Source: Sulfurimonas sp. HSL3-7 (GTDB lineage Bacteria > Campylobacterota > Campylobacteria > Campylobacterales > Sulfurimonadaceae). Taken from it: a stretch of 64,000 nt of DNA. Below are positions 4,714 to 56,239 of this stretch, piece after piece (the first letter of the stretch is position 1; every line of letters begins with the position of its first letter). The stretch lies in contig NZ_CP147919.1 in the NCBI RefSeq assembly GCF_039645985.1, forward strand, positions 186,001 through 250,000, written 5' to 3'. The notes under the pieces are model-generated. The model was not told the origin of the DNA and did no database searches. It saw nothing but the letters and a program-made list of their open reading frames with translations. The position numbers were made by a program, and so were the translations under genes.

Positions 4714-4963
4714 TTACCTTTTAAAAATTATTCCTACAAAACGTAATGTTACTAAAGAGTGACAACTATAAATCCTACCTGCGATCGGGACATCGTTTGG
4801 CTTCTTTGCCTTATTTTATAGAATCCTTTGATGTTCGGTTTGTTTTTTGCCTGATGTGATAAATTGAAAGGGTCATGTAATATAATTCGATAAAGATTAT
4901 GGGCATAGAGAACAGTCGGTCGTTATAGCTATATCTTCGGAACTCTTTTTTTAGGTGTATATT

Positions 4964-5353
4964 ATGAGTATCTTTGCTTTACAATCGCCGGCGGGCGGCT
5001 TTTTGGATGAAGACCTCGAACATTTTAATAAAACGTTTGATGACTGGTGTGTACAGTTTGATAACTACGAAGATGCCAGTACCATTGCGGAGAGCCTTGA
5101 TGAAAGAAAGAGTGTCGAGATCGTTGAGATCACACCGCTGAGCTATCCGAAATATTTCTTTTCAGACCTACAAGGCAATATTCATGCAACACGGCAGGTC
5201 GATGACAAGATTATCTGTATTGTCGAGCCCTTTATGGGGTCAAATTTTCGCATCGCTGTCTGTGATTTGAAGACGAAGCGTGTGAAACTGATGCCGACGC
5301 GCTATAAAAGTGTCCTGAGTGTCGAAGGCGCTTTTGCGAATTTTACGAATTGA
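4964..5353 (+). CDS. Hypothetical protein, 129 residues
   Basis: The start is set at ATG 4964 (MSIFALQ...); another in-frame ATG lies three codons upstream at 4955. A weak TTTAGGTG precedes it. The protein is soluble and acidic at the N-terminus (DEDLEHFNKTFDDWC) and has a beta-rich C-terminal half (DKIICIVEPF, RIAVCDLKTKRVKLMP). There are no signal peptide, membrane segments or recognised motifs. I do not recognise the family. It lies ahead of queF in the same orientation, separated by 158 bases, so a functional link is not implied. Confidence 0.6.
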   Translation: MSIFALQSPAGGFLDEDLEHFNKTFDDWCVQFDNYEDASTIAESLDERKSVEIVEITPLSYPKYFFSDLQGNIHATRQVDDKIICIVEPFMGSNFRIAVCDLKTKRVKLMPTRYKSVLSVEGAFANFTN

Positions 5354-54537: not shown

Positions 54538-54543
54538 TATAAT
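54538..54543 (+). promoter_or_regulatory. -10 box of the candidate retron RNA and reverse transcriptase
   Basis: A perfect TATAAT with TTGAT just ahead. Transcription would start about seven bases downstream, at 54549-54551, which is where the a1 repeat AGGCAG begins. No -35 match is seen at the right distance. Confidence 0.6.
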
Positions 54544-54549
54544 AAAACT

Positions 54550-54648
54550 AGGCAGTAGCTTTATACGATTTCGATCGTAGTTCAGGTCCGTTTTGGTAGC
54601 GCGTTTCGCCTACTTTTCTGAATGGTCCCACTGAAATTCGTGCTGCCT
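54550..54648 (+). ncRNA. Candidate retron msr-msd RNA
   Basis: About 99 bases between promoter and reverse transcriptase gene. a1 AGGCAGTA (54550-54557) pairs with TGCTGCCT (54641-54648) over eight pairs including one T-G. The next base inside is G54558 of a TAGC, as in retrons, where the branching guanosine lies beside the a1/a2 helix. Next is TACGAT-TTCG-ATCGTA (54564-54579), an msr-type hairpin with a UUCG tetraloop. The msd part would be TTCAG (54581-54585) to CTGAA (54618-54622 or 54631-54635), enclosing GTAG-(C)-GCG-TTT-CGC-CTAC (54596-54613). It is shorter than most known retron RNAs. Confidence 0.55.
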
Positions 54649-54664: not shown

Positions 54665-56239
54665 ATGATCAAACAATACAAGACTATCAAAATTGCCAAA
54701 GGTGATGGACGATATCGAATACTTTACGCACCACACAAAGCCTACAAAAACAAATTAATATCGTTTCTTCCGGAACTACAGCAAAAACTCCATAATATCG
54801 ATGTAGAAGGTCGTATCCACGGTTTTATGCGCGGCCGTTCACCGGTGAGCAACGCACTCAAACATGTCGGCTACGCCTACACGCTCTCGCTTGATCTGGA
54901 AGATTTTTTTGACAGTGTGAAAGCGGATATGGTCAAAGCGTACCTGAGTGAAGAAGCGTTCTCTCTCTGTTTTATCGACGGCATCGCCAGGCAAGGTCTA
55001 CCGACAAGCCCTGTGATCGCCAATCTCGCTTTTGTAGAGATCGATAAAGCGATTGCGGATGCTCTTTCAGATGAAGGGGTCTATGCTGTCTATACCCGTT
55101 ACGCCGACGACCTGATCTTCTCTTTTAACGACAAGGCCTTTGCGGAGACGATTGAAAAAGTTGTCGAGAGGATCATCAATGGTGCAGGTTTTCGCCTTAA
55201 CCATAAAAAAAGAAAGCTGCAGAGTGCCAAAAACGGCCGGAGGATGATCACCGGTATCGCAGTGGACAACCGCGGCATCCACCCCAGCCGGGCATTGAAA
55301 CGCCGCATCAGGGCGGCGGTGCATCAGGAGAACAGGGCTGAGGCCTTCGGTCTTCTCTCCTGGGCCGAGTGCAGACCTCCCAAAGCGTTTTATACCGATC
55401 GTGATCTGCTTAATAAAAACATCTTTGACGGAGAGGCCTTGGACATCTCGAACGATTTTTACCTTGCGAATCTTCTCTCTTTCGAGGCCTATGTCGACGC
55501 AGTTGAAAGCGACTTTGACGGTTCTGCCCTTTTGCATGAGCAGGATAGAGAGAAGTGGGAAAAACAGAAGAGTGCTTTTCTGACGCAGAGAGAAGCATTT
55601 TATATAAAAGAGAAAAAACGTGCCGAAGCGGAGCATCAAGAGAGACGTAAAGAGATGGAGAGACATTTTTTAGCTGAAAAAGAGGAGAAGAGAGAGGAGA
55701 AAAAGTTGCAGAAAGAGACAGTTACCCAGAGCGTTTCTTCTACCCGTCCTGAAGAGAATAGCGAGGACGCCTCTCCCAAAGAGTTGAAAATCGATCTTGA
55801 TGCGCTAAAAGAGATAGAACAGCAAGAGAGCGCACATTTCCAGGCAGAGAAAAAAGCACGTCGGCGCAGGCAGGAAGAGCAACGCCAGGCCAATGAGGAG
55901 AAAGAGGAGAAAAAACAGCGGCTTAATAAACTCTTTTTAGCAAGTATTCTTCCCCTTTTGATCCTCTTAGGCGCGATGAGCTACTACTTTTCAGCGACAA
56001 AGATCGAGATAAAAGAGGCGTACCCGCTCTTCATCGAAACGGTACCGTTTGATGCCAAAATACAGATCATGAACATCAAACCGGCATACAAGCCGGGAAT
56101 CCTGCTTAAACCGGAAAACTATGATATACGTATCAGCAAAAAGGGGTATGAGACCCAGCGGTTCTGGATAAAGATGGAGCACGAGAACAAAATCGTCAAA
56201 CGCGAATTGAAGAAGGTCAAAGTCCGTAAGGTCTATTAA
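54665..56239 (+). CDS. Retron-type reverse transcriptase fused to coiled coil, membrane helix and PEGA-like domain
   Basis: 524 residues; GAGAAG precedes the ATG. The RT domain (about 1-280) has RILYAPHKAYKNKL, the retron NAxxH motif as NALKH (63-67), SLDLEDFFDSV with Asp77, RQGLPTSPVIANL (109-121), YTRYADDLIFSF with YADD at 146-149, GFRLNHKKRKL, and ITG (195-197) matching the retron VTG. Catalytic acids are intact. Residues about 290-422 are a Glu/Lys/Arg-rich coiled coil, followed by one helix LFLASILPLLILLGAMSYYF (423-442). The rest (about 445-524) is PEGA-like: ETVPFDAKIQIMNI, GILLKPENYDIRISKKGYET. Basic residues before the helix place the RT in the cytosol and PEGA in the periplasm. Confidence 0.85.
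   Translation: MIKQYKTIKIAKGDGRYRILYAPHKAYKNKLISFLPELQQKLHNIDVEGRIHGFMRGRSPVSNALKHVGYAYTLSLDLEDFFDSVKADMVKAYLSEEAFSLCFIDGIARQGLPTSPVIANLAFVEIDKAIADALSDEGVYAVYTRYADDLIFSFNDKAFAETIEKVVERIINGAGFRLNHKKRKLQSAKNGRRMITGIAVDNRGIHPSRALKRRIRAAVHQENRAEAFGLLSWAECRPPKAFYTDRDLLNKNIFDGEALDISNDFYLANLLSFEAYVDAVESDFDGSALLHEQDREKWEKQKSAFLTQREAFYIKEKKRAEAEHQERRKEMERHFLAEKEEKREEKKLQKETVTQSVSSTRPEENSEDASPKELKIDLDALKEIEQQESAHFQAEKKARRRRQEEQRQANEEKEEKKQRLNKLFLASILPLLILLGAMSYYFSATKIEIKEAYPLFIETVPFDAKIQIMNIKPAYKPGILLKPENYDIRISKKGYETQRFWIKMEHENKIVKRELKKVKVRKVY

Follow-up and report, generated by a model that had tools for sequence, protein, structure and literature searches.

A candidate membrane-tethered retron: a reverse transcriptase fused to a predicted transmembrane helix and a PEGA-type domain in Sulfurimonas

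In the window (the whole stretch of 64,000 nucleotides from Sulfurimonas sp. HSL3-7 that was analysed) we identified a gene that joins a reverse transcriptase (RT) of the retron clade to a conserved stalk, a transmembrane (TM) helix and a PEGA-type domain, that follows an RNA closed by a1/a2 repeats, and that is fixed at one locus in one genus (Table 1). We are highly confident that the RT and the RNA form a retron locus. As the overall explanation we lean, with modest confidence, towards a membrane-tethered single-gene retron, in which the RT and the part that is usually a separate effector make up one membrane protein; its function as a membrane-acting sentinel of defence or stress is a tentative proposal, placed slightly short of even.

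Table 1. Features of the retron-like locus (coordinates refer to the window)
Feature	Coordinates	Strand	Basis and remarks
TATAAT -10-like element	54538..54543	+	~7 nt ahead of the RNA; conserved in all six genomes aligned here
Retron-type non-coding RNA (msr-msd candidate), 99 nt	54550..54648	+	directly upstream of the RT in seven of seven genomes
a1 arm AGGCAGTA of the terminal stem	54550..54557	+	pairs with a2 in every sequence having letters there
Predicted branching G (UA-G-C right after a1)	54558..54558	+	invariant in seven sequences
msr hairpin SL1 UACGAU-UUCG-AUCGUA	54564..54579	+	two double-sided compensatory pairs
Hairpin P3/SL3 (msd, or msr recognition hairpin plus short msd)	54581..54635	+	three double-sided compensatory pairs in P3
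Apical loop G-UUU-C of SL3	~54603-54607	+	
a2 arm TGCTGCCT	54641..54648	+	partner of a1
RT-stalk-TM-PEGA fusion gene	54665..56239	+	524 aa plus stop, ATG start, ORF intact
Retron RT core, residues 1-230	54665..55354	+	NALKH, D77, YADD, ITG, H220
Genus-specific conserved segment, residues 231-290 (FYTDRDLLNKNIF...SNDFYL)	55355..55534	+	72-78% identity; pN/pS ~0.17-0.22 in diverged pairs
Charged coiled-coil stalk, residues 291-422	55535..55930	+	helices 295-354 and 378-444 in the model; lowest conservation of all parts
Single transmembrane helix, residues 423-442	55931..55990	+	hydropathy, basic N-side flank; kept in orthologues
PEGA-type beta domain, residues 450-520	56012..56224	+	homology to domains of host-family proteins, PEGA by transitivity; pLDDT 94-98

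Architecture of the fusion protein

The protein exhibits the RT motifs NALKH (63-67), Asp77, RQGLPTSP (109-116), YADD (146-149) and ITG (195-197). NALKH fits the retron motif NAxxH and ITG corresponds to VTG with V changed to I, while YADD, D77 and the QG motif are invariant across all members of the genus. The Pfam scan identified RVT_1 (1.3e-17), and the PADLOC retron RT models matched at ~1e-43 with up to 146 bits, the top-scoring ones being II-A/III-A; the group II intron maturase model reached 42 bits (4e-11). Structure prediction from the seven sequences alone was poor (pLDDT 58), and the model used here was obtained from a 56-row alignment (mean pLDDT 86, mostly 92-98 in the RT core), with long helices in the stalk and a beta domain starting at residue 453. 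The fold search carried out with this model returned the RTs of retrons Eco7, Ec86, Ec78 and Eco2 as the top matches, ahead of group II RTs. The segment following the RT core (residues 231-290) is among the best-conserved parts of the protein within the genus; no relative of it was found in viral contigs, and it possibly substitutes for the RT thumb.

Residues 423-442 constitute the sole strong hydrophobic stretch (mean hydropathy 1.98, the next best segment elsewhere reaching 1.19). The basic N-terminal side of this helix suggests an N-in/C-out orientation, and it is very probable that the RT resides in the cytosol and the PEGA domain outside. The C-terminal segment scores 12.2-14.5 bits with the PEGA profile (PF08308), i.e. 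under the Pfam cut-off of 20.8. Over 44-74 residues it is 41-56% identical to domains that further host-family proteins contain, among them two domains of L022 (47% and 55% identity), which scores as PEGA with 1.3e-12, and L023 (48% identity, PEGA score 1e-4); the last ~75 residues are thus, as judged from these alignments, homologous to accepted PEGA domains despite the sub-threshold Pfam score. The same PEGA variant is present in L023 (721-2541, minus strand), L021 (1198-2754, minus strand) and L025 (556-1701), joined to caspase plus sulfatase-modifying-factor and to transglutaminase-like domains, and is a widely used envelope module in the relatives.

The original prediction, made from the letters alone, had described intact retron-type RT motifs, a charged coiled coil of ~130 residues, a single membrane helix and a PEGA-like beta domain, with the RT in the cytosol and PEGA in the periplasm. 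All these elements were recovered at the places proposed, and the topology agrees with the charge distribution around the helix. The further proposal that an RT is fused to a membrane effector or sensor held up as far as the fusion is concerned, which is real and conserved; the effector or sensor role of the C-terminal part is a putative one. Scans with Pfam and NCBIfam revealed no recognisable toxic or enzyme domain in that part, and the search of a viral structure library gave no match specific to it. Could the PEGA domain instead be a periplasmic sensor of the cell wall or of adsorbing phage, with the RT complex as the output, through the making of msDNA or the release of a bound activity? 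The conservation of PEGA, which equals that of the RT core, its predicted location outside, and the occurrence of the same domain in further proteins that combine a cytosolic part with a single TM helix would agree with such inward signalling. We regard it as improbable, since PEGA domains are usually held to be structural and we know of no retron that is regulated from outside the membrane.

Phylogenetic position and phage relatives

In a tree of 110 rows, which included group II RTs, the latter fall outside with support of 100/100, and the genus forms a clade (100/99) nested in a 21-row clade (99/93) whose other members come from phage contigs and a plasmid. The RT therefore stays within retrons, as the original prediction had proposed. 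Assignment to group II introns was rejected by this split, and assignment to DGR or Abi RTs by the model scores and the fold ranking.

The nearest RTs outside the genus are found in viral contigs (37-44% identity) and on ColE1-like plasmids of 4-5 kb. The viral members of the clade begin directly at RT motif 1; in most of them motifs A and B are separated by a short stretch (23 residues in the window RT versus 45 in Ec78), and a common G-x-x-x-W/F motif follows V/ITG. In RTs of the clade the usual N-terminal extension is missing, as are part of the A-B region and much of the thumb. One of the contigs, L052, carries an RNA of 226 nt (4747-4972), located via its inverted repeats, with 13-bp a1/a2 repeats and a G right after a1 (z = -6.25), in a phage replication module next to integrase, DnaB and DnaD genes. 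On account of this RNA, the clade includes true retrons by anatomy. Three other contigs (L070 4977-6269, L073 4968-6335 and L075 4054-5406) share a different C-terminal domain with the pattern W-T-S-C ... A-R-x-L-V/I-Y and without a Pfam match, which may possibly represent fused effectors of phage retrons. In two tiny ColE1-like plasmids of 4.2 and 4.8 kb from Klebsiella and E. coli, an RT of the same clade directly follows a 98-aa gene (L143 754-1587, NZ_CP055514.1; L144 1004-1837, NZ_CP103649.1); the branch of these RTs is long, and a search for a retron RNA beside them recognised none.

This topology suggests that the host probably captured a phage-type retron. Since the search for relatives covered mainly a viral collection and the phylum, a sampling that is biased with respect to phage ancestry, the capture is inferred rather than demonstrated. 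TM-PEGA modules, also attached to cytosolic domains, occur frequently in the host family, and the phage relatives showed none; the fusion was therefore probably made in the host.

The upstream RNA

The gap between the Ham1 gene and the RT is a highly conserved stretch that holds a single-copy RNA, whose predicted anatomy matches that of a retron msr-msd. It is closed by a1/a2 inverted repeats with a G after a1, and it is conserved and covarying: 98.7% of the paired cells in the alignment of seven sequences are retained as pairs, and five pairs are altered on both sides, a count as high being reached in 0 of 500 shuffles (0-1 in slid controls). Transcription would start after the TATAAT element. 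Thus the RT branch, the motifs and the upstream a1/a2 RNA expected of a retron are all present in the sequence. No known RNA family could be assigned, the Rfam matches in the window being tRNAs only. The RNA was absent from the original prediction, which likewise did not mention a probable origin from phage or the vertical descent at a fixed locus.

The loop of SL3 reads UUU in six of the seven genomes and CUU in the remaining one, and RT residue H220 aligns with H268 of Ec86, the thumb histidine reported to stack on the UUU loop of the Eco1 msr (PMC12405507). This correspondence leads to two readings of the 3' part of the RNA: P3/SL3 may constitute a small msd, or SL3 may serve as the hairpin for recognition, which would leave an msd of just ~30-35 nt. 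A strict scan for GUUUC hairpins upstream of the clade RTs found one in L051 only; as it did not tolerate bulges and failed to detect the hairpin of the window RNA, its outcome speaks neither for nor against such hairpins in the clade. A covariance model built from the seven RNAs of the genus recovers all seven training copies and gives zero matches in the phage relatives, whose RNAs, if present, have therefore diverged past recognition by this model.

With an RNA this short, in which a long msd hairpin of its own is missing, the msDNA may be reduced to a minimum or not be made at all. Or perhaps the msd hairpin has been lost and the RT is retained as an RNA-binding membrane scaffold that makes no real msDNA? 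The length of 99 nt against 226 nt in L052 and the reduced RTs of the clade would speak for it; the invariant YADD, D77 and QG motif, an RT core under purifying selection and the chance that P3/SL3 is itself a small msd speak against it, and we consider such a loss rather improbable.

Conservation, locus and selection

Among 228 genomes of the host family, the fusion occurs in the window's genus only, and a scan of GTDB contigs returned the same six other genomes; searches of the broader class and phylum revealed other retron-like RTs and no fusion. Five of these genomes encode full-length orthologues (58-67% identity), all with the C-terminal part. The sixth (G336; L031 4679-5479) has the first 267 codons as far as the contig end; codon 244, close to that end, is an in-frame TAA, which reflects a base-calling error in the MAG or else a broken copy. 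An eighth genome of the genus, 56% complete, is without the locus and is missing Ham1 as well.

The gene adjoins Ham1/RdgB in seven of seven genomes, with a rhodanese gene on the other side where the assembly reaches. Other genera mostly retain the MFS-Ham1 pair, often with a uppP-like gene beside Ham1, and do not carry the fusion gene. In G334, Ham1, RNA and RT are set apart by one additional gene and a short insertion, and the RNA remains with the RT. In this genome (L026 8552-12850), a glycine-rich, porin-like looking gene of 514 aa follows Ham1 and precedes the retron RNA, and an inverted repeat of ~25 nt lies between RNA and RT. A mobile element in the window was rejected, given that RT and RNA have no duplicate in the genome.

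In diverged pairs, pN/pS is 0.15-0.27 for the RT and PEGA parts and ~0.4 for the coil; synonymous sites have reached saturation, as have those of the core neighbours, and the RT tree is not in conflict with the trees of neighbouring genes. From these comparisons, the fusion gene is vertically inherited and under selection. The conservation of the whole fusion at one locus of the genus with low pN/pS makes the observation more than a chance event. An ordinary cytosolic retron RT with an accidental C-terminal fusion, which the frequent unrelated C-terminal domains on retron RTs of this clade could suggest, is contradicted by the same stalk-TM-PEGA arrangement under purifying selection in every full-length orthologue, and we regard it as most improbable; an assembly artefact was rejected as well, with the full-length protein being present in six genomes. 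The original prediction had named two findings that would overturn it, an RT placed outside retrons and a fusion that is an isolated accident, and neither was observed. It had also suggested a look at the neighbourhood for a defence island. Such an island was not found: the ten neighbours include no defence gene with a meaningful PADLOC match, the only hit being a spurious one of 15.7 bits to Cas12a.

The absence of defence genes from the neighbourhood, together with fixation in the genus, keeps alive the possibility that a membrane-tethered RT-RNA-DNA complex was recruited to normal physiology, such as envelope stress or surveillance of DNA and RNA, and does not act in phage defence. The single syntenic position in all seven genomes with an assembled locus, the agreement with neighbour trees, the core-like synonymous saturation and the housekeeping character of the surrounding genes are in keeping with such a role, as is a precedent for vertical retrons in myxobacteria, described in a passage of PMC8867640 that cites Rice and Lampson 1995. 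On the other hand, the protein evolves faster than Ham1 or the MoeA-like neighbour, a linked partner gene from a known pathway is absent, and most retrons tested to date protect against phage. We consider housekeeping recruitment unlikely, yet a serious contender.

Comparison with known retrons

The PADLOC types RT-Toprim (I-C), RT-DUF3800 (VII-A1), RT-Protease (XI) and RT-TIR (XII) likewise combine a retron RT and a C-terminal part in one polypeptide, and the RNA of single-gene fused retrons lies just upstream. In those types the fused domains are soluble enzymes or DUF3800, whereas here a stalk, a TM helix and PEGA follow, with no enzyme domain recognised: Pfam and NCBIfam scans detected no Toprim, DUF3800, protease or TIR domain after the RT, the PADLOC models of fused types match the RT part only, and RT-Toprim-like fused RTs occupy another branch of the tree than the RT of the genus. 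By its domain content, the fusion fits none of the named single-gene retron types, in line with the original prediction. Eco1/Ec86 and the II-A/III-A retrons share with it the NAxxH and VTG-like motifs, the a1-G branch context, the UUU-loop hairpin and the matching thumb histidine, but differ in possessing separate effector genes, a longer RT with the N-terminal extension and a full thumb, and a longer RNA with its own msd hairpin. In Ec48-like retrons, where the outcome at the membrane may be similar, the membrane effector is a separate gene, whereas here the membrane protein is the RT itself, with one TM helix. The phage RTs (L052, L051, L070, L071, L073 and L075, all from IMG/VR contigs) resemble the window RT in identity, in the mostly short A-B region and in the G-x-x-x-W/F motif, and one of them has a retron RNA; they differ in lacking TM-PEGA, in having other or no C-terminal domains and, in several cases, in residing in phage replication modules. 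We know of no RT-TM-PEGA-like fusion from myxobacterial retrons, which have a soluble RT and are alike in being inherited vertically within a lineage (PMC8867640). The literature searched, a set outside of which the main retron classification paper falls, contained no RT-PEGA fusion or membrane-tethered retron, and the architecture is likely to be previously undescribed.

Proposed mechanism

According to the reading as a membrane-tethered single-gene retron, the cytosolic RT would bind the upstream RNA and start reverse transcription of the 3' part at the branching G, giving a short msDNA of ~60 nt, or of 30-35 nt should SL3 be an msr hairpin. The resulting RNA-DNA complex would be held at the cytosolic face of the inner membrane on the coiled-coil stalk, which is probably oligomeric. 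Damage to the complex or its loss, e.g. via a phage nuclease, could then rearrange the stalk, and this change could affect the envelope through the single TM helix, with PEGA serving as the outer anchor. The complex-loss step is proposed by analogy with retrons in which RT-RNA-DNA keeps the effector in check (PMC12548924).

As to the origin, the tree would be explained if an ancestor of the genus had captured a phage-borne retron, whose RT was then fused, in the host, to a TM-PEGA module of the host. It is unusual for a mobile defence system to be fixed throughout a genus, and vertical descent at a fixed locus makes a routine role of this kind less certain. A bolder interpretation, which we hold to be doubtful, is that the captured phage retron and the envelope module have become a core, vertically inherited function, in which the RT and its own RNA stay permanently at the inner membrane, with msDNA minimal or absent, outside of ordinary phage defence.

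Implications

Most known retrons are patchy in distribution, mobile and cytosolic, with effectors that are soluble or separate. The locus described here looks like a captured phage retron that was given a permanent role, and the analysis draws attention to an uncultivated phage clade whose retron RTs are compact and begin without the usual N-terminal extension. If the interpretation is true, a one-protein membrane retron derived from a phage-type RT and fixed in a genus would link the biology of msDNA to the cell envelope, and would provide a test case for whether retrons can acquire a permanent cellular role.
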